Assembly: GCF_000948985.2 (NCBI RefSeq)
Contig: NZ_CP059733.1
Location: forward strand, 310,001-374,000
Direction of reading: 5' to 3'
Origin: Thalassomonas viridans
Lineage (GTDB): Bacteria > Pseudomonadota > Gammaproteobacteria > Enterobacterales > Alteromonadaceae
DNA length: 64,000 nt
Below are positions 13,238 to 34,786 of the stretch, piece after piece; positions within the stretch are counted from its first letter, which is position 1; each line of letters opens with the position of its first letter. The notes below the pieces were generated by a model. It searched no databases and was not told the origin of the DNA. It worked only from the letters and a program-made list of their open reading frames with translations. The position numbers and the translations under genes were made by a program.

Positions 13238-13390
13238 TTCAGGAAGAATGGTATGCCATGAGTACATGGATGTGCAGGAATGGTGATGTTCAGGAAGAAT
13301 GGTATGCCATGAGTACATGGATGTGCAGGAATGGCGATGTTCAGGAAGAATGGTATGCCATGAGCACATGGGTGCGCAGGAATGGCGGTA
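13238..13390. repeat. Three tandem copies of a 51-bp repeat
   Basis: Copies occupy 13238-13288, 13289-13339 and 13340-13390. The first two differ by one base; the third has several changes. Each unit contains CCATGAGTACATGG, a small hairpin. As 51 is a multiple of 3, the array is open on both strands (17-residue units), but neither frame has a good ribosome site or family, so I treat it as DNA repeat, not a gene. Confidence 0.85.
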
Positions 13391-18677: not shown

Positions 18678-19553
18678 TTACAAGCTCACGACTTCCATTA
18701 ACAGTTTGATAAAGGGGGAAGATAAACGCTCATTTGATATAACCAAATGACTTTGAATTTCAAACGAAGCTTCATTGATCGCAACAGTATGTATATTTTT
18801 ATGTTCAACATGCTCATGATTGGCGACCACTGAAATTCCCATGCTGTGCCCGACGGCATCCCTTACGGCTTCCCTGCTTCCCAGTTCATAGGCAATATCT
18901 AATTTAATGTTATTTTCATTTGCCGCTTTTTCTAATTGCTGTCTTGTTAGCGAGCCGCTTTCCCTGACAATGATTTTCTGGCCCGCAAATGCAGAAATGT
19001 CTATTTTCTTCTCGACCGAAAGGGGGTGATCTTTGGGGACGATCGCTTGTATCCGGTACTTGAAGTGCGGTATTACCTGGTATCCCAGTAACTTATCATT
19101 TTGCACAAAGAACCCCGCGTCCACATCGCCGCGCAGCAACATGGCTTTAATGACCTCGGATGAAGAGTAGGTAACTTTGACCTTTATGTTTGGACACTTC
19201 CTATGCAAGCATTTTAAAACTTCGGATATCAGATAGGGGCTTACAGCGGCAAGGTGGACTTCTCCATATTGCATTTTATCGGATGCCATCAACATAAACT
19301 CAGCATCTTTTACCTGGTTTAGCGCCGCTTTAAAGAGGGGAAGTAAAGACTCTCCAAGTGGCGTGAGCCTGTTGTTTTCTCTTGAGCGGACAAAAAGTTT
19401 GGTATTGTATACTTCTTCCAGCGAAGATATTTTATTGATTAATGAAGGCTGGGTAATACTCAGGCTTTCAGCGCTTTTTTTAAAGCTTCTTGTCTTAGCC
19501 AAAATACAAAAAGCTTCAATTTGAGAAAGTGTTACCTTGCGGGATATTCTCAT
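18678..19553 (-). CDS. LysR family transcriptional regulator of the phosphonate locus
   Basis: This 291-residue protein has a winged HTH at residues 1-65 (SQIEAFCILAKTRSFKKSAE...ITQPSLINKISSLE) and a type 2 periplasmic-binding-like effector domain. It is the last of six same-strand genes and begins 5 bp after the transporter stop, so it is cotranscribed with it. By context it should control phnX, the transporter and the upstream genes, with a phosphonate or phosphonoacetaldehyde as the likely inducer; this is inference. Confidence 0.88.
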   Translation of the reverse strand: MRISRKVTLSQIEAFCILAKTRSFKKSAESLSITQPSLINKISSLEEVYNTKLFVRSRENNRLTPLGESLLPLFKAALNQVKDAEFMLMASDKMQYGEVHLAAVSPYLISEVLKCLHRKCPNIKVKVTYSSSEVIKAMLLRGDVDAGFFVQNDKLLGYQVIPHFKYRIQAIVPKDHPLSVEKKIDISAFAGQKIIVRESGSLTRQQLEKAANENNIKLDIAYELGSREAVRDAVGHSMGISVVANHEHVEHKNIHTVAINEASFEIQSHLVISNERLSSPFIKLLMEVVSL

Positions 19554-19558
19554 CGCTT

Positions 19559-20887
19559 TTACCCGGCCAGCCTTTTGCCGGTATTTGATGATGAAAGCGG
19601 CTTCACTGCAAAAGCTTGCTTATCAAATTTTGGTAACTTACGGGCAAAAAATATTGCAGATACCAGCATTAACCCTACTGAACCTATAGACAGGAGCATT
19701 ACCATCTGCTGGAGAAACTCAACCCAGGACAGCCTGATATCCCCCAGGTAGCGAATAAAGGTAAGCACAACACTACCTAGATAACCAAAGGCGTCGCAAA
19801 GATAGATACCGAAAGTTGCCGTGCCTATCGAGCCTGTTGCTGCCACCATACGATCAAATAGCACGGAACTAAATGGAACATATGCCGTGAATAATCCAAT
19901 GGTCAACAACAGCATCCAAGTTTGGGGGTCGATCGCGTGCAAGTGGAAACCTAAGGTTACAACAACCATAAGTAAACATCCTGTCATGATTAACCAGTGA
20001 TAGCCGATAAACGCACTACGGTTGTTTTTGATCATGCTAAAACATGACAAGATGACAGCCAGAAACAGGCCTACTTTTAAACCTAATGTTGCGAAGATCT
20101 CCGGCTGGTCGCCAAAGCCCAGTTCCTGCCAAATTTCTGCCTCATAGTTACCGCGTATATCGCGCAGGGCGGTAAGCAAGATCTGAACGATTATCAGGCA
20201 AATCAAGCCCAGCTGCCATTTTTTAAAAAATGTGCGTTTCATCTTTCCGGACATAGTGTCTCGATGGACACGTAATGCTTCATCTTCCTTTGTTGGGGGG
20301 GGCGACATGGATAACATGTATGCCGAGATAATCAATAGGGGGTAAAAAAGTAGTCCCGTATAAAATGGCATCCAAAACTCGGGTACGGAAAGTTCTTGAA
20401 TGAGGTAGCTGCCTACAGACTTAACAAATCCGGAGGCGACAATAAAACTGACGGTTAACGCAGCTCCCAGAAACTCTGATGTTTTTCTCCCTTCAACGAA
20501 ACTGATGACAATTCCCCAGATCATACCGAGCGGCAGGCCATTGATGAAGAGAGCTATGAATTTGTACTTTAATGGAACCAATGGCAGCAGGAGCAGGGCG
20601 GCAAGCGCAATTGTTACTAAGGCAATGATTGCTTGCAGGCGATATTGTCTGTTTAATTCAGTGATAACCTTGATACCAATGAATTTTGAGATGGTATAAC
20701 CTAACACTTGGGATACGACCAGCAGCACCTTAAGATCGATATCAGATGTCCATCCATCAATATTTGCATATGTTGTAGCCGAGAAAGGTTTTCTCAAACC
20801 ATACATAGAAAAGTATGTAATAAAGGAAAAAACTAATATGTATAGCGTGAGCGCAGTCCCGGCTAATTTATTGACTACCTTTTGCAT
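19559..20887 (-). CDS. MFS-like membrane transporter (DUF5690-like), phosphonate locus
   Basis: This 442-residue integral membrane protein has about 12 helices. It begins MQKVVNKLAGTALTLYILVF, with YFSMYGLRKPF in the first helix region, the signature I associate with DUF5690, a major-facilitator-related family often found with phnX. The ATG chosen has GGAG 5 nt upstream; the frame is open 20 codons further but without a site. Its place between phnX and the LysR gene suggests uptake of an organophosphonate across the inner membrane. The substrate is not known from sequence. Confidence 0.83.
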   Translation of the reverse strand: MQKVVNKLAGTALTLYILVFSFITYFSMYGLRKPFSATTYANIDGWTSDIDLKVLLVVSQVLGYTISKFIGIKVITELNRQYRLQAIIALVTIALAALLLLPLVPLKYKFIALFINGLPLGMIWGIVISFVEGRKTSEFLGAALTVSFIVASGFVKSVGSYLIQELSVPEFWMPFYTGLLFYPLLIISAYMLSMSPPPTKEDEALRVHRDTMSGKMKRTFFKKWQLGLICLIIVQILLTALRDIRGNYEAEIWQELGFGDQPEIFATLGLKVGLFLAVILSCFSMIKNNRSAFIGYHWLIMTGCLLMVVVTLGFHLHAIDPQTWMLLLTIGLFTAYVPFSSVLFDRMVAATGSIGTATFGIYLCDAFGYLGSVVLTFIRYLGDIRLSWVEFLQQMVMLLSIGSVGLMLVSAIFFARKLPKFDKQAFAVKPLSSSNTGKRLAG

Positions 20888-20992
20888 GTAAACTCCAAAA
20901 CAACAAGGCTTTTGGTTTGCGTTAGCAGCAAACCAAAAGCGCAACAATGCTAGCTAAAAATTGTTAAAGAAATATGATACTTAATTTTTGGG

Positions 20993-21808
20993 TTAAGGCC
21001 GTTCACCGGCAATAAGGCGATTATTTATTTCCTGAAGTACAGGCTCGATCATGGCTAAACTGTCAATGACAAAGTGTGCCCCGGCGCAGGTAAGTTCTTC
21101 AACGGCCTTTGAGCGCAATGCCTGTTGCTCATTACCCGACAAGGCTTGCCATTCTTCCTGCGTTGTTCCTACTGCGTTTCCCGTCAATGCAAGGCCAACC
21201 GTCCACATGCCGGCATTTATCCCTTCTTCAATACCCGGGGTTGAATCATCGACCTTTACGCAGTTAAATACGGATTTTATGCCCAGTTCTATTACGTTTT
21301 GTAGCGCCATCCAGGGACCGGGACGAGACCTGGCAGCCAGGTCATCACTGCATACATAACAATCTGGTTTGTAGCCATAGGCAGCAGCTGCCGGTACCAG
21401 CACTTCCATCACTTCCCTTGGATAGCCGGAGCAGCTACCAAGTTTAATTCCCTGGTTTTTAAGGCTGTTTAATACCGGCATAACATCAGGAATTGGTTGG
21501 GCACGTTCTGCAACTTTAGCTTTTTGCAAGGGCATAAAGGTATTGTAAATCTCGTCGATTTGCTCATTTGTCATCGCATGGCCGAATTGTTCTAACCAAC
21601 GGCCCCGAACGGAAGGAAGCTTGCCTAGCGCCCGAATATGATCCCATTTCCCCATACCCATAGGTACGCGAGCTTCATCCATGCTTATTTCAAAGTTGTA
21701 TGCTTTTTTAAAAGCTTCAACAAAGATACTGGTAGGAGCTACAGAGCCGTAATCTACGACTGTACCCGCCCAATCCAAAATGAGTGCTTCGATTAGTATG
21801 TTTTGCAT
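20993..21808 (-). CDS. phnX: Phosphonoacetaldehyde hydrolase (phosphonatase) PhnX
   Basis: This 271-residue HAD enzyme cleaves the C-P bond of phosphonoacetaldehyde to acetaldehyde and phosphate. The nucleophile is Asp12 in LDWAGT, the Schiff-base Lys54 lies in GMGKWDH within the cap domain, CSGYPREVM is motif II and KVDDSTPG (Asp187/Asp188) binds Mg2+. The family length and motifs are complete. In most bacteria phnX is paired with phnW (2-aminoethylphosphonate transaminase); no phnW is in this window, and an alcohol dehydrogenase is present instead. Confidence 0.95.
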   Translation of the reverse strand: MQNILIEALILDWAGTVVDYGSVAPTSIFVEAFKKAYNFEISMDEARVPMGMGKWDHIRALGKLPSVRGRWLEQFGHAMTNEQIDEIYNTFMPLQKAKVAERAQPIPDVMPVLNSLKNQGIKLGSCSGYPREVMEVLVPAAAAYGYKPDCYVCSDDLAARSRPGPWMALQNVIELGIKSVFNCVKVDDSTPGIEEGINAGMWTVGLALTGNAVGTTQEEWQALSGNEQQALRSKAVEELTCAGAHFVIDSLAMIEPVLQEINNRLIAGERP

Positions 21809-21949
21809 TTCAAATATCTCTTATTGTTTTAAATATGACAGTCAGGTTCAGTACGTATTTAATGGAAAGCAAGCGGGCGTCAGAACCTGGCTGGAAAACG
21901 TGATTTTCAGGGAAAAGGCGAATTTTAGTTCGCTGTTACAGGCCTATAG

Positions 21950-24751
21950 CTAAAAACTATAGTTGAACCCCAGCATGCCTTTTCGTCCATAATATTCAAG
22001 CTGAAGCGGGCGTTGATCATTACCTAAGAAGTAATAAAGCGGTTCATCTGTTAAGTTGTTTAATTCGATAAACACCATGGCATTGTCATTGAGGTAATAT
22101 GAGGCCGAAAAGTCGAGGCTGGTATATTCACCGTAGTAGCTGTCAAATGTTGGCTCATTACCATGTTCTTCGATGTACTCGTCCTTATGGTTCAGGGCAA
22201 TACGGGCTGATAGATTTGCGTCATCGTAATAAAGTGCAATGTTGTATAACATGTCTGCCTGGCGGGGGATGCTGACTTTGCCTTTACGTCCGGGGATAGT
22301 CATATCCGAGTCCATCAATGTGACATTGGTTTGAATACCAAAGTTATCCATAGCGCTTGAAATGAAGCCGAATGAACGGTTGTAAGCTATTTCCAAACCG
22401 TATAGCGAGGCATTGTCGCCATTTGCAGGGGTGAACTTTCTAACTCCTTCAGTGCCGTTATAGGTGACCAATGACGAGTTTTGGAAAATTGGATCTGAAA
22501 TGTCTTTATAAAAAAGGCCTGCTGAAACTATACCCGCGTCTTCAAAGTAATACTCGACCATTAAATCTATATTGTTTGAATATGTTGGATTGACTTTGGG
22601 GTTACCCGCTTCCAGCTCGAAATCGGCTTCCCTGTAGGTAGAGCCGGGGGAAATAAAACCGAAATCAGGTCGGGCAAAGGTACGGGTTAAAGCCAGGCGG
22701 TAGTTAATATTTTCACTTGGGCTGTATTTGACGTGCAGTGAAGGTAAAACTGATAAGTAATCTTTTTTACCTGTGGTGTCAGAGACACTTTCATTTCCGT
22801 TTACATCAACTTCAAATTTAAAGCCCTCTACCTTAGTATCTGTCTGTGTCAGGCGAAGACCGCCAAGAATAGTCCATTCACTGTCCGGCGTATAGGTAGC
22901 CATACCGTAAGCCGAGGTATGCTTTTCAAAAACATTAAAGTGCCTGCCTAATGCTCCGCCATTTTCAATTAATGCTGACGATTCTTTGTTTAGAACCAGG
23001 TTGTCGCGATTGCGGTTCCAAAAGCTGACGACATCATTGATTGAAGCCACCCGGGTGAATTGCTTATGCCAGTCGCCATTCAGCTGGCTCAGGAAACCGC
23101 TTCGGCCCGGTTGATCAGATAGGCTAAAATCGGATAATAAAGGAACATCACCGGCATTTTGATCCCAATTGTAGTGCTCGTCGGAGAATGTAGAAATGCG
23201 TTCTTTATCACGATACTTGACGCCGAATTTCAGCTCGGTCGATTCAGTTAGCTGGTGTGTTAAGTCCATGCTGAAAATGATATTGTCTTTTTCATTGATG
23301 TAACCTTTGTATAGCACTATCTCGGCCAGTTTCGCCTGGCTGGGGTCCATTTCAAACCCCTCCGGCAAGTGGCTACTGAACTTGTTCCAAAGGTCTGTAC
23401 CGCCGTCGACTTTATTGTAAGCGTAATTGCTGCCAACACGATTTTCCAAGCCGATAAAGCCGACATCGCTTTGATGGAACTGTGCAATAAAGTAGGCATT
23501 ATCTTCGGAGTTGGGGGAATTATCGTATCTGAATTCATTATCGAAGTGGGCTGCTTTCCATTCAAGCGTTGTGTCGTAACCAAAATAGTGTTCACCGCCC
23601 AGTTCAAAGCCGGTCATTTCAGTGATCATTTCATTATAGATGTGCTGAACCTCGATTCGGTCTTTATCAAAGCGTAAACGATGCTTGTAGTGAGTTTCAT
23701 CATCTTTTAGTGTTCCGTAAAGTGCGCTGGCATAGATCTTTCCCTCTTCCAACAGGTACTCAAGCCCACCGTTAAAACCGTAAGTGTGACGTTCACCGGT
23801 ATAGTCCCGTAATTCAAGGCGGCGGACACCTAAACCATCAGATCCCCTGCGAGGTTCGTAATTGTCTGTTGCCCAATTCCGTTTCCAGTAACTTGCGTTC
23901 AGGATATAACCGAATTTGTCATCGGCACTGCGGTCACCATAAAGAAGGTTTAAAGAGTTATCGCTGCCGCCTGCTTGTTCATGGTGACCTATTGCGCCAC
24001 TAATTTTGAATGTCTGCTCTGCAGGTGCCGTGCGCGTGATAAAATTAACGTTACCGCCAATTGCGTCGCCTTCCATATCTGGAGTAATGGCTTTGGTAAC
24101 TTCCACAAATTCAATCATTTCTGAAGGGAAAAAGTCGAATGCCGTTCCTCTGTGGGATGTTTCCTGTTCCGCTGTTGGCAGCCTGCTGCCATTAACGGTT
24201 GAACTGCTCCATTGAGCAGGTAAACCTCTCACTGCAACAAAACGACCTTCGCCCTGATCCCGCTCTATAGAAACCCCGGGAATACGTTGTACTGCTTCGG
24301 CCGCGTTCCGGTCTGGCAACTTGCCGATCCCGTCGGAAGAAATGACATTGATAATTTTATTTGAACTCTTTTGAATGTTTGAAGCTGCCATTTCGCCGCG
24401 TAATATCTGGCCTAAAACAACAATCTCTTCCATCGTATTGTTGTCTGCGTTTAATACAACCGAACCGAGTGTTTTACGTTCGTTTTCAGAGACTTCAATA
24501 TCAATGATTTGCTTTTTATAACTTAAGTATTCGACTTCAAGCTGGTATGTGCCTGCCGGGAGTTTTAATATTTCAAACTCACCTTTGTAGTCTGTGGTTG
24601 TTTTAATGCCAGTATCCAGAACTTTTACTGTAGCACCGGGCAACAGGTTGGCCTTGTCTTTAATTGTGCCGGTTACGACCGCCGACTGAGCAAAGGCATT
24701 TAGCGAAAGTGGTATCGCCATTGCTAAGGCCACTGGTTTAAGTTTTGTCAT
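21950..24751 (-). CDS. TonB-dependent outer-membrane receptor of the phosphonate locus
   Basis: This 933-residue receptor has a signal peptide (to about residue 22, NAFAQ), a carboxypeptidase-regulatory-like beta domain (about 25-105), a plug with RNAAEAVQRIPGVSIERDQG and VAVRGL, and a beta barrel ending in the terminal Phe of GFNYSF. It is of the TonB-Xanth-Caul type used for sugars and other large ligands rather than classic siderophore receptors. It stands 141 bp upstream of phnX in the same direction. Likely cargo is a phosphonate-bearing saccharide or lipid fragment; this is inference from context. Confidence 0.9.
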   Translation of the reverse strand: MTKLKPVALAMAIPLSLNAFAQSAVVTGTIKDKANLLPGATVKVLDTGIKTTTDYKGEFEILKLPAGTYQLEVEYLSYKKQIIDIEVSENERKTLGSVVLNADNNTMEEIVVLGQILRGEMAASNIQKSSNKIINVISSDGIGKLPDRNAAEAVQRIPGVSIERDQGEGRFVAVRGLPAQWSSSTVNGSRLPTAEQETSHRGTAFDFFPSEMIEFVEVTKAITPDMEGDAIGGNVNFITRTAPAEQTFKISGAIGHHEQAGGSDNSLNLLYGDRSADDKFGYILNASYWKRNWATDNYEPRRGSDGLGVRRLELRDYTGERHTYGFNGGLEYLLEEGKIYASALYGTLKDDETHYKHRLRFDKDRIEVQHIYNEMITEMTGFELGGEHYFGYDTTLEWKAAHFDNEFRYDNSPNSEDNAYFIAQFHQSDVGFIGLENRVGSNYAYNKVDGGTDLWNKFSSHLPEGFEMDPSQAKLAEIVLYKGYINEKDNIIFSMDLTHQLTESTELKFGVKYRDKERISTFSDEHYNWDQNAGDVPLLSDFSLSDQPGRSGFLSQLNGDWHKQFTRVASINDVVSFWNRNRDNLVLNKESSALIENGGALGRHFNVFEKHTSAYGMATYTPDSEWTILGGLRLTQTDTKVEGFKFEVDVNGNESVSDTTGKKDYLSVLPSLHVKYSPSENINYRLALTRTFARPDFGFISPGSTYREADFELEAGNPKVNPTYSNNIDLMVEYYFEDAGIVSAGLFYKDISDPIFQNSSLVTYNGTEGVRKFTPANGDNASLYGLEIAYNRSFGFISSAMDNFGIQTNVTLMDSDMTIPGRKGKVSIPRQADMLYNIALYYDDANLSARIALNHKDEYIEEHGNEPTFDSYYGEYTSLDFSASYYLNDNAMVFIELNNLTDEPLYYFLGNDQRPLQLEYYGRKGMLGFNYSF

Positions 24752-24840
24752 AGTTGTTCCCGCGTATTTGAATGAAAAATGTGTAAAGTTCAAATTGGCG
24801 ACTATTAGGACAAAGAAAAATGACAGTAATGGCTATGCCT

Positions 24841-24861
24841 GATTAGCTTTTAACTAATTAA
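24841..24861. promoter_or_regulatory. Candidate operator upstream of the TonB receptor gene
   Basis: The plus strand reads GATTAGCTTTTAACTAATTA here; its reverse complement resembles the site at 27980-28000 upstream of the alcohol dehydrogenase gene in most positions. It lies 90-110 bp upstream of the receptor ATG. Proposed LysR-binding site or shared promoter element. Confidence 0.4.
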
Positions 24862-24966
24862 GAATACGTAATACATAAATACAGGGGATAGGGATTGATA
24901 TTCCGGATAGCTGTGAGGGCAATGCCAGAGTTTAAAAAGTTTAAAAACCAATTGTTGGCAGGTAAT

Positions 24967-24990
24967 TAAAAAGCCCCTCAGGGCTTTTTA
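24967..24990. terminator. Bidirectional terminator after the PAN-phosphodiesterase gene
   Basis: The hairpin AAAAAGCCC-CTCA-GGGCTTTTT lies between the phosphodiesterase stop and the TonB receptor promoter, with T-tracts on both strands. It separates the two genes into different transcripts. Confidence 0.8.
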
Positions 24991-25014
24991 ATAAACTTGA
25001 TAACCCCGGTATAT

Positions 25015-26439
25015 TTAATATCCGCAATCAGGATGGATATTGCCGTCGGTAGTATTATTAATTCCCAGAAAGTCTAAAATATGCGGCGTTGCGCTATCCA
25101 CCTGATAAAGGGGAGTCGCTGACAAATCCCCGCTACAGTAGCTTGCCTTGCCGGGGTTCAGGTAATTGTTGTTCAAAATAAGGAAAGTATTCCTTTCCTG
25201 GTTTGACTGACCTCCGTGACCTCTGTTAATGCCGCCGTGATCCGAAGTAACAACTATCAGCCATTCTTCGTTCCGGTAGTTCGGCCTGTTGGTAAGCGCA
25301 GTTAATACTTGCTGAATTTGGGCATCTTCACTGGCAATATTCTGCTTATATGTAGAACTAAGCGGATCATATGACGAAGTATGAATATCGACATTGTGCA
25401 GGTAGTAAAAAATTGCGGTGGGCGGGTTATCCCAGCTTAACCAGCCTTTTACTGTGTCTGTAGCTTGTTGGGATGCTTTATTTGAGTTGGCAACGACATG
25501 ATCTGCTCCGTTTGGAAGCAGGTTGTGAGTAAGGTTATACCAGTCAGCAACAACAGCGGTTGTTGCTGTGGGATATGTTTGTTTAATCAGCTCAAATACA
25601 TGGGGTTTTAGCATAGGCAGAGAAGTGTTGTTGGAAGTCACTCCATGCTTATTGCTCCAGAAACCCGTGAAAACGCTTGCCCATCCGGGGCCGCTAGAAG
25701 TTACCTGGTCGCCCCCGGCAATAACATTCGAGTGAAAAGCTCCGCTACTGATGAGTGCATCTAACGCATCCGTTCGCGCGCAGCCTGCACACTGTATTGA
25801 ATCGCCTCTCAAGCCATCAATGCCTATCAGCAATACGTGTTTTTTGCCCGGAATCGGGTTAGGGGTATCATTAACTTCGAGGCTGTAATGGTCGTAAGGG
25901 TTGCCTGAGTAATCAGTTTTCAATCCTCCGACATCACCGGCTCGCTTGTCGCTCAGATCACATTTATTGTCTTTTTTATGATAATCAAATGAGCGGCACC
26001 AATATGAACGTTCATGGCTGGTACATGCTGCGGCGCAATCTTCAGCAGTGACATTTTCCAGGCTTTCGTTATTGTGACCATAAATTGCCGCATTTTCCGT
26101 TAAGACAAACCGTGGAAGTGCTTCTGGCTTGAGGCTGTAGTGATCGTAAGGATTTCCCTGGTAATCTGTTTTTAATCCTCCAACATCCGCCGCGCGTTTA
26201 TCGCTTAAATCGCATTTGTTTTGATGCTTGTAGTAATCAAATGATACGCACCAATCATTGCGAGTGTCTGCCAGGCATTGTGTTGCGCATTGTTGCGGTG
26301 ACACATTGCTTAACGTTTCAACATTGTGCCCGTAAATAGCAGCATTAGTGACTAAGTCAAACTTATTGAGGGTGTTTGCATTTGCCATGGATGTATACAC
26401 GGATATTATCCCGGCAAGTATTAAATAGCTTTTTTTCAT
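25015..26439 (-). CDS. Secreted protein with two PAN/apple modules and an alkaline-phosphatase-superfamily phosphodiesterase domain
   Basis: A signal peptide (to about residue 21) is followed by two nearly repeated cysteine-rich PAN/apple modules of about 80 residues (roughly 25-105 and 108-190; both contain AAIYGHN, WC, SFDY and KCDLSDKRA) and a type I phosphodiesterase / nucleotide-pyrophosphatase-like domain (about 195-474). Metal-site motifs are LLIGIDGLRGD, a nucleophile region in SSGPGWASVFTG and TSDHGGINRGHGG. The superfamily includes phosphonate monoester hydrolases. PAN modules bind proteins or glycans. The neighbourhood suggests hydrolysis of a phosphonate or phosphate ester outside the cytoplasm. 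The ATG used opens MKKSYLIL; another is 4 codons upstream. Confidence 0.85.
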   Translation of the reverse strand: MKKSYLILAGIISVYTSMANANTLNKFDLVTNAAIYGHNVETLSNVSPQQCATQCLADTRNDWCVSFDYYKHQNKCDLSDKRAADVGGLKTDYQGNPYDHYSLKPEALPRFVLTENAAIYGHNNESLENVTAEDCAAACTSHERSYWCRSFDYHKKDNKCDLSDKRAGDVGGLKTDYSGNPYDHYSLEVNDTPNPIPGKKHVLLIGIDGLRGDSIQCAGCARTDALDALISSGAFHSNVIAGGDQVTSSGPGWASVFTGFWSNKHGVTSNNTSLPMLKPHVFELIKQTYPTATTAVVADWYNLTHNLLPNGADHVVANSNKASQQATDTVKGWLSWDNPPTAIFYYLHNVDIHTSSYDPLSSTYKQNIASEDAQIQQVLTALTNRPNYRNEEWLIVVTSDHGGINRGHGGQSNQERNTFLILNNNYLNPGKASYCSGDLSATPLYQVDSATPHILDFLGINNTTDGNIHPDCGY

Positions 26440-26520
26440 AGGGGTTCCCATTCAGGTCAATTGATAGTTCCCCCCTATTTCTACAGTTATATATGACAAA
26501 CATTGAGGTACAAAGTTATT

Positions 26521-26537
26521 GTTAAAGCTAACTTAAC
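26521..26537. promoter_or_regulatory. Candidate operator upstream of the PAN-phosphodiesterase gene
   Basis: GTTAAAGCTAACTTAAC lies 82-98 bp upstream of the ATG and shares the GTTAAAGCT core with the element upstream of the alcohol dehydrogenase gene. It is followed by further AGCTTA repeats. Proposed regulatory site, weaker match than the other two. Confidence 0.35.
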
Positions 26538-26814
26538 TTAGCTTATTTAAGCTTTGGGACCTGGAATAATATTGCTTTGCTCTCCTGTGCCTAGATAGAG
26601 AGTTAAGTGGGGTGCAGGTTTATACAAGTTTACGCACAAGTCTTGTTAAGGTGATAGAGGCGAACCTTATTTGCTGTTCAGGCTTACTTGTGCAATATAC
26701 GGCTTTGGCAAGGAGCAGATGGCAATCAGGGCTGTTGGCTGACGGCAAGATCGAGCACCGAAGCGCCTGTAGATCAGGCGCTGCCGGGAGTGGCAGTGAA
26801 ATCTGCTCAAACCG
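26538..26814. other. Intergenic region with two hairpins between ADH and phosphodiesterase genes
   Basis: There is no convincing gene. Two adjacent hairpins lie near the ADH stop: AGCGCCTG-TAGAT-CAGGCGCT (26762-26782, perfect 8-bp stem) and CTGCC...GGCAG (26781-26796). Neither is followed by a T-tract on the minus strand, so they may stabilise the ADH transcript end rather than terminate it. Confidence 0.5.
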
Positions 26815-27906
26815 TTAAATTTGAGGAAGTACAACCTCTTTCAGGCCAATAAAATTTGCTCCGCGCGCACCATCAAAGGCATTGGAAACAATAGCCGTCC
26901 ACTCGGTTTGTTTGATGCCATAATCTGCATACTCTGTCGCTACACCTAAAATTGAAAAGAAGTCTTTCATGTATTGCGGCGCCAACTCCAGTTTTACAGG
27001 GAAAACTTGTGCTAAAGCATAGTCAAGTTTGGTATCCTGCCCGATCATGGCGGTTAAAATTCCAGGTAATGTAAAGGAGCATGCCAGACCATGGACTACG
27101 CCGTATTTCATGGTGACTTCATAAGAAATATTGTGTGCCAGTGCCGTTTTTGTGTTTGAAAATGCAAGACCTGCTAGCGTAGATGAGACGGCAATTTTTT
27201 GTCTCAATTTTGGGTTTTTCAAATCTTTAACCAATAAAGGCAAGTATTCAAAAATACCTTTTATCGCCTGAACGGCAAGCGCATTAGAAACCGGGTTTCT
27301 GTTTTTATTCCAGAGACTTTCAAAAGCATGGGAAAGTGCGTCAAGGGCCGTGTTTATGGTAATACCAAGCGGCAGTTCCAGCATAAGTTCCGAATCAATC
27401 AGTGCGTGTTCGGCATAAAGTGCTTTTGACTCTAATGATAACTTGCTTTGATTTTCAGTATCCCAAATTGTTGCCCAACAGGTCACTTCGCTTCCTGTTC
27501 CCGCAGTGGTTGGAATTGCAATGATTTTGGTTTTAATGTCAGGAATATCATAGCCTTGCCTAAGCATAGCTACTAAGTTATCAATGCCACTTTCGCATGC
27601 AGCGAGAAACTTTGCTGAATCGAGAGCTGAGCCTCCGCCTAAACCCACTATCACTTCTGGAAACGGGGAGCACTTTTTTAACTCTCGTGCCTGTTGAATC
27701 AAATGATTTAAACTGGGATTAGGTTCGACGTTACTAACAACTTTTACCGGGCTGCCCGCGCTTTGCCGGATAGCCTGAACCCAATTGGCAAAAGGCTCCC
27801 CGTCATAAGTAACGATACAATAACTTCTTCCTGCAATTAATTCCCCCAAATTTTTTAAACAATCAGGTGAAAACCGAAGGTTAACCGGGTTGATAAAATT
27901 CCACAT
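26815..27906 (-). CDS. Iron-dependent alcohol dehydrogenase, phosphonoacetaldehyde reductase type
   Basis: This 363-residue group III alcohol dehydrogenase has the NAD(P)-binding GGGSALDSAK motif and all four metal ligands: Asp and His in TALDALSHAFE, and His in LAHNISYE and VVHGLAC 14 residues apart. Overall it resembles phosphonoacetaldehyde reductases (PhpC-like), which interconvert phosphonoacetaldehyde and 2-hydroxyethylphosphonate. Next to phnX and with no biosynthetic PEP mutase/decarboxylase pair nearby, the oxidative direction (hydroxyethylphosphonate to phosphonoacetaldehyde) makes sense. It is the first gene of the six-gene set and has its own upstream region. Confidence 0.85.
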   Translation of the reverse strand: MWNFINPVNLRFSPDCLKNLGELIAGRSYCIVTYDGEPFANWVQAIRQSAGSPVKVVSNVEPNPSLNHLIQQARELKKCSPFPEVIVGLGGGSALDSAKFLAACESGIDNLVAMLRQGYDIPDIKTKIIAIPTTAGTGSEVTCWATIWDTENQSKLSLESKALYAEHALIDSELMLELPLGITINTALDALSHAFESLWNKNRNPVSNALAVQAIKGIFEYLPLLVKDLKNPKLRQKIAVSSTLAGLAFSNTKTALAHNISYEVTMKYGVVHGLACSFTLPGILTAMIGQDTKLDYALAQVFPVKLELAPQYMKDFFSILGVATEYADYGIKQTEWTAIVSNAFDGARGANFIGLKEVVLPQI

Positions 27907-28000: not shown

Positions 28001-28277
28001 TGAGCGCGACAAATATGTAACTTCAACTAATTAGCAATCATTCCCTATCAAGTATTTACAATGAATATTTTGTGAGAAAACTACTGATGAGGAGCCGTTC
28101 CCGCACGGACAGGCAAAGACACGGTTATAGTTGTCATTTCAGCATGCTTATATGACAGATGTTATAACTTTATGGTTAAAAGTTAATCATTGACTCGATA
28201 GCGCTTTTCACTATTTAATAAAACCCGGATTATTTGCCCGGGTTTTGTTTTATCGGGACTTTTTAGAGGGAAATGAA
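28001..28277 (+). other. Intergenic leader region before the SnoaL-like gene
   Basis: It contains a terminator-like hairpin AAAACCCGG...CCGGGTTTTGTTTT (28220-28250) only about 15 bp upstream of the ribosome site of the next gene. It could end an upstream short transcript or act as an attenuator. A small hairpin CCGTTCCCGCACGG is near 28095. I could not match a known riboswitch. Confidence 0.4.
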
Positions 28278-28745
28278 ATGTCTATAAAATCTTTGCTGTC
28301 CTTGCTTGTGATTGCCGGTTTTTATATTGTCCCGGTGCAGGCCTGTGACTTTGAATGCACTTATAAGAAACATATCAGTGCGATAGAGAAAAAAGATATT
28401 GCTGCATTTGAATCTACTATCACCAAAGGGGACAAGCTGACCTTTATCCTGCCCGACGGCACTTTTTTTGAAGACAGCGCCACCTACCGTAAGCTGCTCA
28501 AAGGCTGGTTTGCCGAAGGCGGCTGGACCTTTACCCCCGAAGTGCTCCAGGTGGAGCAAACCAGTGAAATGGGTACCGTACTGCTTAAGGTGCTCTATCA
28601 CGAAGACGACCGCGACGGTAAACCCTATGATTTAGAGCATTACCTGTACCTGGTGTTTAAGAAGCAGGGAGACGGCTGGTTTTTGATCCATGATCAGAAT
28701 ACTAAGGTCAAAGCGGTTAAAGGTGATAAAAGTAAGGCAAGCTAG
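28278..28745 (+). CDS. Secreted SnoaL/NTF2-like small protein
   Basis: This 155-residue protein has a signal peptide (cleavage near VQA, residue 22) and a body resembling NTF2/SnoaL-like or DUF4440 folds (helix KKHISAIEKKDIAAFES, then beta strands with WFLIHDQNTKV near the end). Function is unknown. The ATG has AGAGGGA 6-8 nt upstream; an earlier in-frame start lacks a site. It converges on the response regulator gene with a 4-bp overlap. Confidence 0.72.
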   Translation: MSIKSLLSLLVIAGFYIVPVQACDFECTYKKHISAIEKKDIAAFESTITKGDKLTFILPDGTFFEDSATYRKLLKGWFAEGGWTFTPEVLQVEQTSEMGTVLLKVLYHEDDRDGKPYDLEHYLYLVFKKQGDGWFLIHDQNTKVKAVKGDKSKAS

Positions 28746-29422
28746 CCGTCATCAAAGCGGTAGCCGACGCCGTATACCGAAACTATGGGGTTATAGTCGC
28801 TTTTAATGGTGCTGATTTTGCGGCGGATATTTTTGATATGGGTGTCGATATTGCGGTCGCTGACCTGTTCGGATTCATTATAAACACAGTCGATCAGCGC
28901 CTGGCGGCTAAACACCCTGTGGCTGTTGGTGAGCAGTTTTTCCAGCAGGCGGAATTCTATCGGGGTCAGCACCAGCGGCTGGTCAAATAAACTCACCTGG
29001 TATTTGTCCGGCTCAAGGGCAAAGCCCGCCTGTTTGATCAGGCTTTCGGCCGAAACGCCGGTGCGTCTCAGTACGCCTTTGACCCGGGCCACCATCTCCC
29101 TCGGGCTGAAAGGTTTACAGATATAATCATCTGCCCCTAACTCCAGGCCCAACAGGCGGTCGATTTCTTCGTTTTTTGCCGTCACCATAATAATGGCCAC
29201 CTGGGAAAACATCCGGATTTCTTTACATATGCTGATGCCGTCACTGTCCGGCAGCATAAGATCCAGCAAGATCAAATCCACCTGATTATTTTTGACGTGG
29301 CTGACCACATCTTTACCGCTGGCCATATGGGTCACGGCATAACCGGCATTCTTGCAATAGGCAATTTGCACTTCGGCAATATTCATTTCATCTTCAACGA
29401 TCAGTATTTGCTGTTTTCGCAT
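28742..29422 (-). CDS. OmpR-family response regulator, BaeR-like
   Basis: This 226-residue protein has a receiver domain with phosphoacceptor Asp54 (LILLDLMLP), Asp11 acidic pocket and Lys103 (ICKPFSP), and a winged-helix DNA-binding domain from about residue 130. It matches E. coli BaeR closely, including the NEEIDRLLGLELGADDYICK stretch. Its gene starts 20 bp after the sensor kinase stop. BaeR systems answer envelope stress and toxic compounds; the target here may be the adjacent YHYH operon, by inference. Confidence 0.92.
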   Translation of the reverse strand: MRKQQILIVEDEMNIAEVQIAYCKNAGYAVTHMASGKDVVSHVKNNQVDLILLDLMLPDSDGISICKEIRMFSQVAIIMVTAKNEEIDRLLGLELGADDYICKPFSPREMVARVKGVLRRTGVSAESLIKQAGFALEPDKYQVSLFDQPLVLTPIEFRLLEKLLTNSHRVFSRQALIDCVYNESEQVSDRNIDTHIKNIRRKISTIKSDYNPIVSVYGVGYRFDDG

Positions 29423-29442
29423 ATGTTGATAACCTTAAATGT

Positions 29443-31071
29443 TCAGCGGGCTGCCAGGGGCAGGGTCAGTTTAATGCACAAGCCCCCCAGCGGGGAAGAC
29501 ATGGCGGTGATCGTCCCCTGGTGCGCTTCGATAATTTGCTTACACAGCGCCAGTCCAAGGCCGGAGCCACCATATTTGCGGCTGCGTGAAGCTTCTACCC
29601 GGTAAAAGCGCTCGAACAGTTTGGGCCGTTTAGCGGCAGTGACCCCGGGGGCGGAGTCCTGAATTTGAATTTCCAGCGTCTGTCCGGCGCAATGAGTGAC
29701 GATGTTGAGCTTGCCCCCCGGGTCGGTGTAACGGCAGCTGTTTTCCAGCAGGTTGGAAAACAGCTGTTTGATCCTGTCTTTATCGACAATAGCTGTATAT
29801 TCGCGGGCGTTGGGGTCGTCCAGGTTATGGCTGACGCTTAGGTTGCACTGCTCAAATTTCCCCTGATAGTTGGCCACCACCTGGGACAGCAAAACCAAAG
29901 GCTGCTGCTCGGTTTTCTTATAGGTCAGGCCGCCGATATCTGAACTGGAAAGCTGGTAGAGGTCGTCCACCAGGCGGTTTAATTTTTCGATTTCCTCGAT
30001 AAACAGGGCGATCTTTTTCTCGTCCGCCTGGAAGATGCCGTCCTGTATGGCAATCAACTGGGATTTGATCACCGTCAGTGGGGTTCTGAGTTCGTGGGAG
30101 GTGTCCGACATCCACTGGTAGCGGTTGCTTTGGTTTTTTTCCAGGGTCTGGGCGAGATCGTTAACGTTTTCCGACAATTGTCCCAGTTCATCCCGGGTCA
30201 GCACAGGCACCCGGGTATCGTACAAGCCGCCGCGCAGGCCGTTGGTGGCGGCTATCAGGCGTTTTATCGGCGCCACCAGGTGGCGGGATAACCCTAACGC
30301 CATCAGTACGGCGAGAAAGATCACCGCCAGGGCGATCAGGGCAAACATCTGGTACTGTTGTTTGAGGAAGATGCTGGCGGGACTGTTTTTTTCCGCATTG
30401 GCGGGCACCAGCGCCAGGTAGCCCACGGTATCGCCGTTAAAGGTGATAGCTTCGATCCACTGGTTCTCGTCGATATCTTCCCGGCCGACAAAAGGCACCT
30501 TGTTGGCGTCGTAGAAGCTGATGCGCCGCTCTGTCTTCATAAAGTCGTCGCCCTCGTTTTTCGGCGGCCTGTAGTTCCTGTCGCTGCGCTCTTCTCTTGG
30601 CGGTGGCCTGTAGCTCCTGTCACCGCGGTCTTCTCTTGGCGGCGGCCTGTTGTTTCTGTCACCGCGCCCCTCTCTTGGTGGCGGCCTGTTGTCCCTGTCA
30701 CCGCGGCCTTCTCTTGGTGGTGGCCTGTTGTTTCTGTCGCCACGCCCTTCTCTTGGCGGTGGGCCGGATCTCGGGCGTTGTTCATGGCGGGGAGCGGGCT
30801 GTGAGGCTTTTTCCGGCATTCTGGTGTCTGAGTTGGGAGCAAAAACATCACGCCATAGTTCCCGGTCTTGGGTTAAGGGCTGCCAGCTTTGGTGTTGTTG
30901 ATAAACCTGAGTCAGCGACTGTTTTACCCGGGTAAAATACTGCTGGTCGCTGGTATTGACGAACTCGTTAAAACCTGAGGTTAAACTCCAGATCACCAGG
31001 GCCAGCAATAAAAGTACGGCAATAAAATTGCTGATTAAAAAGGCGAGTGAAAATTTATGTAGCAGTTTCAA
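29443..31071 (-). CDS. Sensor histidine kinase, BaeS-like, with Pro/Arg/Glu repeat sensor
   Basis: This 542-residue kinase has two transmembrane helices (about 10-32 and 230-250), a periplasmic region, HAMP, HisKA with His326 (TSHELRTPL) and an HATPase domain. The periplasmic part contains five tandem 13-residue repeats of the type PPPREGRGDRNNR (30568-30762), very rich in Pro, Arg, Glu and Asp and likely disordered. This is unusual for BaeS-type sensors and may bind ligand or metal. The start is TTG. It is paired with the response regulator gene downstream and lies 146 bp after the YHYH operon. Confidence 0.88.
   Translation of the reverse strand: MKLLHKFSLAFLISNFIAVLLLLALVIWSLTSGFNEFVNTSDQQYFTRVKQSLTQVYQQHQSWQPLTQDRELWRDVFAPNSDTRMPEKASQPAPRHEQRPRSGPPPREGRGDRNNRPPPREGRGDRDNRPPPREGRGDRNNRPPPREDRGDRSYRPPPREERSDRNYRPPKNEGDDFMKTERRISFYDANKVPFVGREDIDENQWIEAITFNGDTVGYLALVPANAEKNSPASIFLKQQYQMFALIALAVIFLAVLMALGLSRHLVAPIKRLIAATNGLRGGLYDTRVPVLTRDELGQLSENVNDLAQTLEKNQSNRYQWMSDTSHELRTPLTVIKSQLIAIQDGIFQADEKKIALFIEEIEKLNRLVDDLYQLSSSDIGGLTYKKTEQQPLVLLSQVVANYQGKFEQCNLSVSHNLDDPNAREYTAIVDKDRIKQLFSNLLENSCRYTDPGGKLNIVTHCAGQTLEIQIQDSAPGVTAAKRPKLFERFYRVEASRSRKYGGSGLGLALCKQIIEAHQGTITAMSSPLGGLCIKLTLPLAAR
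30568..30762 (-). repeat. Five 39-bp in-frame repeats in the kinase gene
   Basis: Each unit codes 13 residues beginning PPPRE and ending R. Units 1-3 are nearly identical in DNA, units 4 and 5 have diverged (REDRGDRSYR, REERSDRNYR). The array can expand or contract by slippage without breaking the frame. Confidence 0.85.
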
Positions 31072-31217: not shown

Positions 31218-32417
31218 TTAACGGCAATAAGTGCCGGTTTCGATCAGGCCGCCGTTGCTGACGGTTTTTTGCTCGAAATCATAACAGTTGGCTGTGCCCG
31301 CCGATGGACGGTAACTGACATAATAATTTTCTCCGCGGTAGTCATAACGCATGGTGCGGCTGCCGTCTTCACCTATAACATGGCTGAGGTTTTCCACGCC
31401 GTCCTGCGGCGGTGTTAAATGGGCCCGTGCGCCTGTGGTATCGCCGCTTAACGGGCTGACCCGGGGTAAGATGCCGGTGTCGACTTCCCCCACCAGGCAC
31501 TGGATGATATAGGGAGGTGTTACTGAGGTATGGTAGCGGTAACCAAAGCTTTCATCGGCCTGGCCGTTACAGACATCTAAAGTACCGGCTTCAATTGCCG
31601 AACCGTCCGGATTGTTATTGCCGTATAGGGGGTAACCGTCGTAGCCCCAGCCGATCACTGTGTCGTCGGCTTTATTCGGCATAGCGTCAATCATGCAGTT
31701 CGGTGCGACATGGTAGTGATAGTCGTCTCCCCGCCCGGCATGTCCGCCGCAGTTGTCCAGCTGGCCCAATACCAGGGTGTCTGCGTTGGCATCATAGTTA
31801 TAAACATCCAATTCCCCCTGGGCGGAATAATCGTAAATAGGGACGCCGTTTACCGCCACGCCGACAGCGGCATCTATAGTCGTCAGGCTGGAGGCCAGTT
31901 GCGGCGTCAGCTTGACGGGAGCGGCATAGTTGACGACGGGTACAGGAATTTGCTCGTTGGTGCCGGTAATACCGTTCATCAGATCATGGTCAGGATAAGT
32001 ATCTGAAATGATATAGGCATACTCGTTATCGCAGTTGACGCTCACACCGTTGAAGCCGCCGGCGGCGACCGAGTCAGTGATCTGCTGGCAGGCTTCCCGC
32101 TTAGTGGTGTCTTCAATATTGTCGACGCCGATATTGCTGGCTTCACTGCCGCCGGTTTCCGTGCCCGGCCCCCGGCTGTTGGGGTTGCAGGCAAAATATT
32201 TCCGGTCCGGGGTGTACTCGCAGTAGCCGGTTTCAGTCCGGTCGCCTCTGCTCATCTGGCACTGGCTGAATTCTGCCTGATCCTGGCAGATTGCTATTGC
32301 CTGTTGCGGCGGCTGGCCGCCGGGTCCTCGCGGTTTCGGCGGCGGTTCCGGGACAAAAGCCTGGGCCAAATGGGTGAGTGCCAGCAGGCAACCGGCGGTT
32401 AATAGATTGAATTTCAT
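31218..32417 (-). CDS. Secreted YHYH-domain protein
   Basis: This 399-residue protein has a signal peptide (ending near AQA, residue 20), a Pro-rich linker (PEPPPKPRGPGG), a Cys-containing segment (about 40-80) and a large YHYH domain with GRGDDYHYHVAPNC and further Cys pairs. YHYH proteins are extracytoplasmic proteins of unknown function; the His/Asp/Cys cluster suggests metal binding. The last about 270 residues are strikingly similar to the PEBP-YHYH protein encoded two genes upstream, so the pair arose by duplication. Spacing to the preceding gene is 33 bp, so one operon. Confidence 0.85.
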   Translation of the reverse strand: MKFNLLTAGCLLALTHLAQAFVPEPPPKPRGPGGQPPQQAIAICQDQAEFSQCQMSRGDRTETGYCEYTPDRKYFACNPNSRGPGTETGGSEASNIGVDNIEDTTKREACQQITDSVAAGGFNGVSVNCDNEYAYIISDTYPDHDLMNGITGTNEQIPVPVVNYAAPVKLTPQLASSLTTIDAAVGVAVNGVPIYDYSAQGELDVYNYDANADTLVLGQLDNCGGHAGRGDDYHYHVAPNCMIDAMPNKADDTVIGWGYDGYPLYGNNNPDGSAIEAGTLDVCNGQADESFGYRYHTSVTPPYIIQCLVGEVDTGILPRVSPLSGDTTGARAHLTPPQDGVENLSHVIGEDGSRTMRYDYRGENYYVSYRPSAGTANCYDFEQKTVSNGGLIETGTYCR

Positions 32418-33124: not shown

Positions 33125-34606
33125 CTAACGGCAAAAGGTGCCGGTTTCTACTATGCCGCCGTTGCTGACGGTTTTTTGTTCAAAGTGATAACAGTTTTCC
33201 TGATCCGTCAGCGGCGAGTAGGTCACGTAATAGGCTTCTCCCTGGTAGTCGTAACTCATGGTACGGCTGCCGTCTTCATTAATGACATGGCTGAGGTTTT
33301 CCACGCCTCCCTGTGGTGGCGTCAAATTGGCCCGTGCGCCTGTGCTATCGCCGCTTAACGGGCTGACCCGGGGTAAGATATTTGTGTCCACCTCACCCGA
33401 CAGGCACTGGATGATATAAGGGGGTGTCTGCGAAGTGTGGTAGCGGTAGCCAAAGGTTTCATCTTCCTGGCCGTTGCAGACATCCAGGGCGCCGTCGGTA
33501 ATGGCGGAGCCGTCCGGATTATTGTCCCCGTATAAGGGGAAGCCGTCATAACCCCAACCGATGATGGCATCGTCTCCCCGGTTCGCCATGCTGGCGATCA
33601 TGCAGTTGGGGGAGGCATGGTAATGGTAATCGTCTCCCCGGCCGGCATGGCCGCCGCAGTTATCCAGCTGGCCTAAGGCCAGGGTATCGTCGGCGGCATC
33701 ATAGTTGTAGATATCCAGTTCTCCCTGGGCGGAATAGTCATAGATAGGCACACCGTTGACCGCAACCCCGACGGCGGCGTCTATGGTGGTCAGGTTGTAG
33801 GTCAACACCGGCGCCAGTTTGACCGGCGCGGCATAGTTGACGGCAGGCACAGGAATTTGTTCATTGGTGCCGGTAATGCCGTTCATCAGGTCGTGGTCCG
33901 GGTAGGTATCCGAGGTGATATAGGCATAGTCGTCATCGCAGCTGACGCTGACCTCATTAAATCCCGCCTGGCTCACCGATAAGCCGATTTGCTCGCAACG
34001 GCTGGTTTCCCCTGTGGCGGATGTACGTTCATAACTCAGGGTTAAGTCCGTTGATGCCAGGGTGATATTTTCTATGGCGCTTAATAGGGTCTCGCCGTCA
34101 ACTGTGGCGGCATCACCAAATTCGGCGCTCTGCGACAGGGCATACAGGGTAATTGTATATATTTTTTCTCCCGGCCCCTGGGAGCAGGGCGGGGCATATT
34201 CATTGAGGCCGTTGATACTATTGGCGCCTAAGGTACCTATGATTTCCCCGGGGGCCAGGCTGTTGATATCTGCAGGAATATCATAGGCAAGCCAGTACCA
34301 GTGCCGGATGCCGTCGCTTGACTGGTGCTGCATGACCACAGTGAAATTTGTTGTCTCCTGCGGTGCGCCCTGCCAGGAAAGGGCGGGAGACAGGCTGCTG
34401 CCGTCGCAGGTGTAGGCAACGGGGAGTTCACCTCTGTCTGTTATTTCTGTGCCGGTTAAGGCAAATTCCACCGGGTCTTCTTCCGGGGAAGTTACTTCGG
34501 TATCGGGTATTGCCTGTTCGGTGCTACCGCTGCCCGAACCGCCGCCGCAGGCGCCCAGGCCGGAAATTAACAAAAAAACGTAAAGGAGTTTCAGTCTGTT
34601 ACACAT
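33125..34606 (-). CDS. Lipoprotein with fused PEBP-like and YHYH domains
   Basis: This 493-residue protein has a lipobox LGAC (about Cys20), then a phosphatidylethanolamine-binding-like domain of the YbhB/YbcL type (about 50-195, with CDGSSLSPALSW and RHWYWLAYDIP), then a YHYH domain (about 200-493, with GRGDDYHYHASPNC). In some bacteria the two domains are neighbours; here they are one polypeptide. It is first in a three-gene operon upstream of a two-component system. The ATG used has AAGGTGAT just upstream; a GTG three codons earlier is possible. Function is unknown. Confidence 0.85.
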   Translation of the reverse strand: MCNRLKLLYVFLLISGLGACGGGSGSGSTEQAIPDTEVTSPEEDPVEFALTGTEITDRGELPVAYTCDGSSLSPALSWQGAPQETTNFTVVMQHQSSDGIRHWYWLAYDIPADINSLAPGEIIGTLGANSINGLNEYAPPCSQGPGEKIYTITLYALSQSAEFGDAATVDGETLLSAIENITLASTDLTLSYERTSATGETSRCEQIGLSVSQAGFNEVSVSCDDDYAYITSDTYPDHDLMNGITGTNEQIPVPAVNYAAPVKLAPVLTYNLTTIDAAVGVAVNGVPIYDYSAQGELDIYNYDAADDTLALGQLDNCGGHAGRGDDYHYHASPNCMIASMANRGDDAIIGWGYDGFPLYGDNNPDGSAITDGALDVCNGQEDETFGYRYHTSQTPPYIIQCLSGEVDTNILPRVSPLSGDSTGARANLTPPQGGVENLSHVINEDGSRTMSYDYQGEAYYVTYSPLTDQENCYHFEQKTVSNGGIVETGTFCR

Positions 34607-34786
34607 ATAGATCACCTTTTGCTGCCGGGTGAGGATTTAATGATGATCAGTATATCGGGGCAATATGGGGTAAAAATGAAAGCTGTGAGTTTTTTAATTT
34701 GCTGATATTTAAGGGTTATTTCTTAACGCTCGGGACTTTTGTGAAAAATGTGTGGAAAATGTGTAAGTCTTGCCGGGACGGGGAAA

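Follow-up and report, generated by a model that had tools for sequence, protein, structure and literature searches.

An iron-dependent alcohol dehydrogenase beside PhnX in a probable 2-hydroxyethylphosphonate utilisation locus of Thalassomonas viridans

A stretch of 64,000 nucleotides from the genome of Thalassomonas viridans (contig NZ_CP059733.1, positions 310,001 to 374,000; this whole stretch is called the window here, and positions are counted from its first letter) was analyzed, and we describe a cluster of six genes in it that probably serves to scavenge phosphorus from 2-hydroxyethylphosphonate (HEP), and probably also from its esters. The gene set, the catalytic residues and the neighbourhoods that recur in other genomes were observed directly, and from them we infer the following chemistry. 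An exported phosphodiesterase would, on balance, release HEP from a larger ester, whether outside the cell or in the periplasm after import by a TonB-dependent receptor; a membrane protein of the DUF5690 family would then be likely to move HEP across the inner membrane; an iron-dependent alcohol dehydrogenase (Fe-ADH, here ADH) would, with high probability on the comparative evidence given below, oxidise HEP to phosphonoacetaldehyde; and PhnX, a family with the established function of cleaving phosphonoacetaldehyde to acetaldehyde and phosphate, would perform the last step. Such a locus would be a new variant of phosphonatase-type utilisation, one that was not met in the literature searched.

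The six open reading frames lie between 18678 and 27906, where the first-pass annotation of this DNA had placed them, all on the minus strand, and the family scans agree with their labels. They are given here in the order of transcription, with the grounds for each assignment.

26815..27906, minus strand: Fe-dependent alcohol dehydrogenase of the TIGR03405-like group, proposed HEP dehydrogenase (family scan, metal ligands, tree and contexts)
25015..26451, minus strand: secreted phosphodiesterase with two PAN domains, alkaline-phosphatase superfamily, proposed phosphonate-ester hydrolase (Pfam, alignment with relatives)
21950..24793, minus strand: TonB-dependent receptor, probable start at ATG 24751, with an N-terminal carboxypeptidase-regulatory-like domain
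20993..21808, minus strand: PhnX, phosphonoacetaldehyde hydrolase (TIGR01422), Asp12 and Lys54 present
19559..20947, minus strand: DUF5690 membrane protein, start probably at a later ATG near 20887, proposed phosphonate permease
18678..19553, minus strand: LysR-type regulator, best NCBIfam match phn_lysR TIGR03339

At 0.439, the cluster is poorer in G+C than the window as a whole (mean 0.495). Of all stretches of equal length in the window, the one lowest in G+C overlaps it, a hint of acquisition from elsewhere.

The two enzymes of the proposed core are assigned as follows. PhnX scores 323 bits with the phosphonatase model TIGR01422, above the curated cut-off of 220. Catalysis in this phosphonatase depends on an Asp nucleophile and a Schiff-base Lys, and both residues, Asp12 and Lys54, were found by reading the sequence and by alignment to a solved relative, so the pair reported at first reading is intact. 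For the ADH the best family by far is TIGR03405 (Phn_Fe-ADH, PsrA), with 389.5 bits. The protein belongs to the Fe-containing alcohol dehydrogenase superfamily, having its Fe-ADH Pfam domains and the D-H-H-H metal ligands, which are Asp189, His193, His258 and His272 in the alignment and are complete, as had been claimed. The residues W144, T146, W148, S157, W199, T252, T254, Y262, R348 and N351, conserved in the ADH group, are all kept in the window ADH, and three further Fe-ADHs of the same genome differ at them; the invariance of W144 and T146 is partly built in by the search pattern described below.

The neighbourhood of this ADH was followed across genomes. The queries were the window ADH and a relative; a scan of 84,980 species genomes of bacteria and archaea picked up 77 loci by two short ADH peptide patterns (one of them EVT[CS]WATI); one more locus was found separately, which gives the 78 loci examined. 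A gene was counted as near the ADH when the gene centres lie at most 8 kb apart and its phmmer score is above 120 bits for PhnX, 300 bits for PhnW, 200 bits for PhnA or 400 bits for PhnY. By this measure phnX is near the ADH, with no phnW over threshold there, at 48 of the 78 loci, although one of the 48 (L068) has a weaker PhnW-like match of 171 bits nearby. PhnW was also sought in all 78 genomes (E up to 1e-60), and it was undetected genome-wide in 49 of them, including the genomes of 41 of the 48 loci; the named isolates within the 41 are two Evansella, Psychrobacillus soli and Gemmiger formicilis. A search for genomes that hold all six families together and lack phnW had been proposed in the first-pass annotation. 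For ADH and phnX the outcome is 48 loci locally and 41 genome-wide, and the core of the pathway is likely right and wider than was known there. Several of the loci stop at contig ends (for example L030 and L047), and neighbours may be unseen at such places.

The arrangement of these loci follows a few patterns. A helix-turn-helix regulator, phnX, ADH, phnD, phnC, phnE and phnE follow one another in Evansella halocellulosilytica, Paenibacillus aceris and Succinatimonas hippei (regulator labels such as DeoR-like were given by eye); another Evansella has phnX and ADH alone, and two further loci have other ABC-type genes downstream. The regulator-phnX-ADH-phnDCEE operon recurs (e.g. L042, L045, L075), with many copies in gut Bacillota and mostly in phnW-free genomes, and this suggests HEP use in the gut. 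In three sphingomonad genomes, none of them with a detected PhnW, the genes after the ADH are those for PhnA, PhnY, a GlpT-like carrier and a TonB receptor; at the scanned locus L024, one of the three, PhnA scores 546 bits and PhnY 780 bits. Nine plasmid records carry the ADH, and all were viewed; the gene is flanked by PhnA and PhnY in four (Ensifer, Leisingera and two Variovorax), by PhnX in two, by PhnCDE only in two, both of the same species, and by LysR only in one. The core of the first reading is thus strongly supported, since ADH with PhnX and ADH with PhnY and PhnA both recur in genomes with no detected PhnW.

The PhnY and PhnA route yields acetate and no acetaldehyde. As the ADH is kept beside this acetaldehyde-free route, it is evidently not there for acetaldehyde, and the conversion of HEP to phosphonoacetaldehyde is an alcohol oxidation whose product would suit PhnX and PhnY alike. 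One clade of the tree, supported at 100/100, unites 26 ADHs of Pseudomonadota or plasmid origin, the window ADH among them, and PhnX and PhnA/Y contexts interleave within it; therefore it seems that the ADH is constant and the downstream degrading module is exchanged. The label "PepM_ctx" in this tree comes from a search for phosphoenolpyruvate (PEP) mutase for L095, from a reading of the neighbours for L065 and from kinship alone for L047. Phosphodiesterases of other families (GDPD, calcineurin-like) are near the ADH at some loci, and in the Rhodobacteraceae loci L027 and L033 the ADH is accompanied by ABC-importer-like genes and glycerophosphodiester phosphodiesterases, a pairing that is perhaps a glyceryl-HEP route.

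The genome of T. viridans has 7.9 Mb in two contigs and holds further phosphonate genes. The earlier statement that there is no phnW holds within the cluster and fails for the genome, where a phnW with 593 bits (cut-off 400.8) is located on the second contig at 372157; its neighbour encodes a secreted enzyme of the alkaline-phosphatase superfamily, which shares 34% identity with the phosphodiesterase of the window across 228 aligned positions. A second phnX is on the same contig at 594941 (319 bits, product 67% identical to the window PhnX), in a cluster with a TonB receptor (52% identical to that of the window), a FAD enzyme and a PhnR-like regulator that scores under its family cut-off. The FAD enzyme is above the cut-off of TIGR03329, "putative aminophosphonate oxidoreductase", so that the pair of receptor and PhnX is repeated in the genome with this oxidoreductase replacing the ADH. 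A second DUF5690 gene, at 710652-712714 of the second contig (L105:9653-11715), is divergent from a gene for a PhnZ-like HD-domain oxygenase (197 bits to TIGR03276, under the cut-off of 214.6), and the two are probably a further phosphonate locus of this genome. No PEP mutase above cut-off was found in the genome search, and a biosynthetic role of the ADH is therefore unlikely.

The receptor of the window matches the TonB receptor model TIGR01782 with 509 bits (cut-off 310). Among 369 genomes of the class, in a search that scored only the two best candidates per genome and may have passed over further receptors, it was found at E <= 1e-150 at three places, all of which are phosphonate clusters: the window and the second phnX cluster of the own genome, and one genome of another family. 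There the receptor, 54% identical, is clustered with PhnX-like, DUF5690, FAD oxidoreductase, PhnF and PhnM proteins. DUF5690 has three copies in two of these 369 genomes, and the receptor-bearing and the DUF5690-bearing genomes are the same two. Uptake through the outer membrane is plausible from this distribution.

The window DUF5690 protein scores 464 bits with PF18943 (cut-off 25) and has ten hydrophobic segments. In another family DUF5690 is present in 13 of 345 genomes, and it was also found on four plasmids and once in a genome reached via the phosphodiesterase. Twenty copies were viewed, a set that includes the window copy, the L149 copy reached via the phosphodiesterase and ten from one genus: six adjoin PhnX, 13 a PhnX-like hydrolase and one a PhnZ-like protein, where "PhnX-like" means, for 12 of these neighbours, a phmmer match to a protein of L106 which itself has 211 bits against a cut-off of 218.9. 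Records of Bacteroides, Parabacteroides and Phocaeicola show the gene order DUF5690-phnX-phnW. Gene context thus supports DUF5690 as a phosphonate permease family. The transporter role given to it in the first-pass annotation has context on its side in 20 of 20 viewed copies, and homology, in the form of a GlpT-like profile match, is missing.

The phosphodiesterase has two PAN_1 stretches, a Phosphodiest domain (PF01663, 47.5 bits, cut-off 23) and a start that is signal-peptide-like. Alignment with relatives shows D212, S253, D404, H405 and H412 to be retained and the DxxxH motif to be shortened to D355-x-H357; the best match among solved structures has an E of 0.0012, and none is a close relative. 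In 394 genomes of the order its matches occupy seven places at E up to 1e-20, three of which are phosphonate clusters, namely the window, the own phnW locus and L149. The last, from the same order, reads DUF5690-PhnX-PhnR-PhnW-phosphodiesterase-TonB receptor, is followed by a gene that by eye resembles one for a phosphoesterase, and looks like a version of the window locus for esters of 2-aminoethylphosphonate (AEP). In the other family a phosphodiesterase relative is found about 5-9 kb from DUF5690 at 8 of 12 loci, and in Paenibacillus aceris a relative (113 bits) with LamG, NPCBM and dockerin domains comes directly after phnX-ADH-phnDCEE. From this company the window enzyme may be a phosphonate-ester hydrolase. 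Phosphonate monoester hydrolases of the formylglycine (fGly) type carry the motif C/S-x-P-x-R, and membership in this type was considered and rejected, as the window enzyme has S253-G-P-G-W257 instead and the PehA model gives 27 bits versus 900. On the Hymenobacter plasmid NZ_CP043649.1 (L165) a distant phosphodiesterase relative is accompanied by SusC, SusD, a PhnZ-type oxygenase and a TIGR03364 FAD enzyme; with a HAD protein and, in all, two enzymes of the alkaline-phosphatase superfamily, this is a phosphonate locus arranged like a polysaccharide utilisation locus.

A number of observations weigh against the HEP reading, and those on the ADH are taken together with the other roles that it could have. 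With the TIGR03405 model the window ADH stays under the cut-off of 423.7, and its end branch in the tree is long (1.48), so that a shifted substrate is possible; relatives scanned from phosphonate operons range from 248.7 to 526.5 bits, some being likewise under the cut-off. PhnW is present in 29 of the 78 ADH genomes, including that of Paenibacillus aceris, and many of the PhnW-free genomes are draft metagenome-assembled genomes, so that some absences may be gaps. At 16 of the 78 loci neither PhnX nor PhnA/PhnY lies within 8 kb (some contigs are short), and at 11 phnW and phnX are both near the ADH. The distant phnW of T. viridans could itself supply the window PhnX from AEP, in which case the ADH could act after PhnX and reduce acetaldehyde to ethanol. 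The 11 loci with both genes would suit this role, acetaldehyde-reducing Fe-ADHs are common, the AdhE model is the second-best NCBIfam match, and AdhE and methanol dehydrogenases are among the solved relatives. We nevertheless regard it as improbable, because the same ADH group stands beside PhnY and PhnA, whose product is acetate, because the 41 loci in PhnW-free genomes would leave PhnX with no known source of its substrate, and because the three other Fe-ADHs of the genome lack several of the residues that do not vary within the group. The opposite direction, in which the ADH would resemble PhpC and reduce phosphonoacetaldehyde to HEP for phosphonate-decorated molecules, draws on PhpC being of the same Fe-ADH class (PMC9381506, from an excerpt) and on the related locus L095, one of the 16 above, whose genome encodes a PEP mutase that exceeds the cut-off; the ADH there should therefore run as a reductase. 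For the window it is very unlikely, as PEP mutase over cut-off is absent from the own genome and from 30 of the 31 ADH genomes tested (of 78), the genes around it encode a hydrolase, a phosphodiesterase and proteins of transport type, and the adjoining PhnX would destroy the phosphonoacetaldehyde. Oxidation of HEP to phosphonoacetaldehyde is the most likely role of the ADH.

The ester and outer-membrane steps are plausible and not established, and the remaining adverse points fall on them and on transport. The window phosphodiesterase has D355-x-H357 where 8 of 8 aligned relatives have DxxxH, and its metal site could therefore be weakened. Four of its seven places in the order, all in one genus, show no phosphonate markers within 13-20 kb; the eight DUF5690 loci with a phosphodiesterase relative also belong to one genus; and five of the six plasmid matches viewed (of 15) have no phosphonate neighbours. 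A receptor 30% identical to that of the window is carried by a Flammeovirga plasmid with no phosphonate genes around it. For DUF5690, no profile match to GlpT-like carriers was obtained in what is a weak test with three sequences on one side, and the control genome Caulobacter vibrioides carries a DUF5690 gene in addition to the 20 copies; single-sequence models of DUF5690 and the phosphodiesterase were poor (pLDDT 48.6 and 33.2) and were not used. All this leaves room for a locus that serves free HEP only, or a HEP-like hydroxyphosphonate, with an ordinary or degenerate phosphodiesterase and a receptor whose ligand is unrelated or mixed. The altered DxxxH and the phosphodiesterase relatives outside phosphonate loci are in keeping with it, as is the fact that a clear phosphodiesterase relative occurs at 1 of the 78 ADH loci, that of Paenibacillus aceris, most of them having a PhnCDE importer. 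We hold such a restriction to be rather unlikely, given that phosphodiesterase relatives occur in phosphonate clusters of several lineages and that the receptor, at E <= 1e-150, was found solely in phosphonate clusters, at 3 of 3 places in the 369 genomes. The earlier proposal of a secreted enzyme acting on a phosphonate ester therefore keeps the support of these lineages, and has against it that the enzyme is not of the fGly type, that its DxxxH is shortened and that it has relatives elsewhere.

A wider scheme may tentatively be drawn from these loci, and it goes further than we would confidently expect to hold. HEP would be mineralised by the Fe-ADH with PhnX or with PhnY and PhnA in Pseudomonadota, Bacillota and Fibrobacterota, and in some Gram-negatives this would take place within a locus similar to those for glycan utilisation, in which a TonB or SusCD receptor, an exported lectin-like or PAN phosphodiesterase and DUF5690 strip HEP or AEP esters, and the enzyme making phosphonoacetaldehyde (ADH, PhnW or FAD oxidoreductase) is swapped according to the ester.

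Compared with the known PhnW-PhnX (phosphonatase) pathway for AEP, the window cluster shares a clear member of the PhnX family, which would obtain phosphate from phosphonoacetaldehyde, but it has no phnW and an Fe-ADH stands in place of the enzyme making phosphonoacetaldehyde. The entries of PbfA, PbfC/PbfD and PbfF (PMC8154272, PMC10590968, PMC12366243, each from an excerpt) are alike in that an extra enzyme leads another phosphonate to phosphonoacetaldehyde beside PhnX; they act on amino- or N-methylaminophosphonates, however, and the window ADH is of another family. In the excerpt of PMC12366243, oxidation of HEP was hypothesised for PbfF, tested and excluded, so PbfF is not an HEP dehydrogenase. 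PhpC, the phosphonoacetaldehyde reductase, shares the Fe-ADH class and catalyses the reverse of the proposed reaction, but it is biosynthetic, whereas the window ADH has catabolic company in a genome with no PEP mutase over cut-off; phpC has also been placed in 2-AEP catabolic operons, with the proposal that it makes HEP there (PMC9381506, excerpt). The GlpT-related 2AEP permease AepP (PMC8316502, excerpt) is likewise a secondary carrier linked to phosphonate use, while DUF5690 has no detectable profile similarity to the GlpT-like carriers of related clusters (three sequences on one side); a GlpT relationship of DUF5690 was rejected for this and for want of any solved relative in the search.

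Of the phosphonates in marine high-molecular-weight phosphorus, HEP is named among the top two in abundance (PMC8931226, excerpt). According to the excerpt of PMC5649143, C-P lyase uses HEP esters in marine dissolved organic matter with ethylene as product, and alkaline-phosphatase-like enzymes were suggested for the HEP ester bond; the substrate class, HEP and its polysaccharide esters, is the same as here, but the proposed ADH-PhnX route would release acetaldehyde in place of ethylene. A catabolic HEP dehydrogenase was not found described in the literature searched, which was seen partly in excerpts and lay mostly outside the subscription journals; DUF5690 is not mentioned anywhere in it, and a word search of the review of phosphonate degradation PMC10574752 gave neither hydroxyethylphosphonate nor HEP. 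If the reading is right, HEP breakdown, credited to C-P lyase and ethylene in the excerpt of PMC5649143, gains a route to acetaldehyde and phosphate, phpC-like genes in metagenomes become ambiguous markers of phosphonate synthesis, a function is offered for DUF5690, and dedicated outer-membrane uptake of phosphonate esters becomes possible.

The regulation of the cluster was also surveyed. The LysR protein has phn_lysR TIGR03339 as its top family with 189.7 bits, below the cut-off of 341.1, and it is probably a sensor of the substrate or of an intermediate. Control by phosphate through PhoB may come on top, for which the motif evidence is weak: 18-base Pho boxes are not enriched in the window (3 found, 3.42 expected), and only 7-base half-sites are seen. 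Promoter and terminator scans did no better than shuffles. The half-site-like sequences upstream of the genes are the following.

28152..28158, minus strand: CTGTCAT, similar to a Pho-box half-site, upstream of the ADH gene
26493..26499, minus strand: TTGTCAT, one base off, upstream of the phosphodiesterase gene
24820..24826, minus strand: CTGTCAT, upstream of the TonB receptor gene
21835..21841, minus strand: CTGTCAT, upstream of phnX

There is no CTGTCAT upstream of the window DUF5690 gene, and the whole window has eight copies on both strands. Three copies were reached in 1 of 5000 base shuffles of the five upstream regions, the sequence having been spotted by eye before counting, and two AT-rich 7-mers likewise recur in three of four regions. 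Of nine regions upstream of related genes elsewhere, CTGTCAT is present in four (those of the second receptor, of the second DUF5690 gene and of the DUF5690 and receptor genes of L149) and absent from the other five, that of the own phnW included. These half-sites are taken as a hint of Pho regulation.

Other features of the window lie outside the cluster. A two-component system is encoded at 28742-31071, and its kinase gene has a 39-base tandem repeat of about five copies (30562-30759) that encodes an Arg/Pro-rich stretch. Next to it are two proteins with YHYH domains (31218-32417 and 33125-34615) whose C-terminal halves are very similar by eye, one of them being fused to a PEBP-type domain. 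A 51-base tandem repeat at 13238-13387 (2.9 copies, 95% matches) runs into the start of a glycosyltransferase open reading frame.

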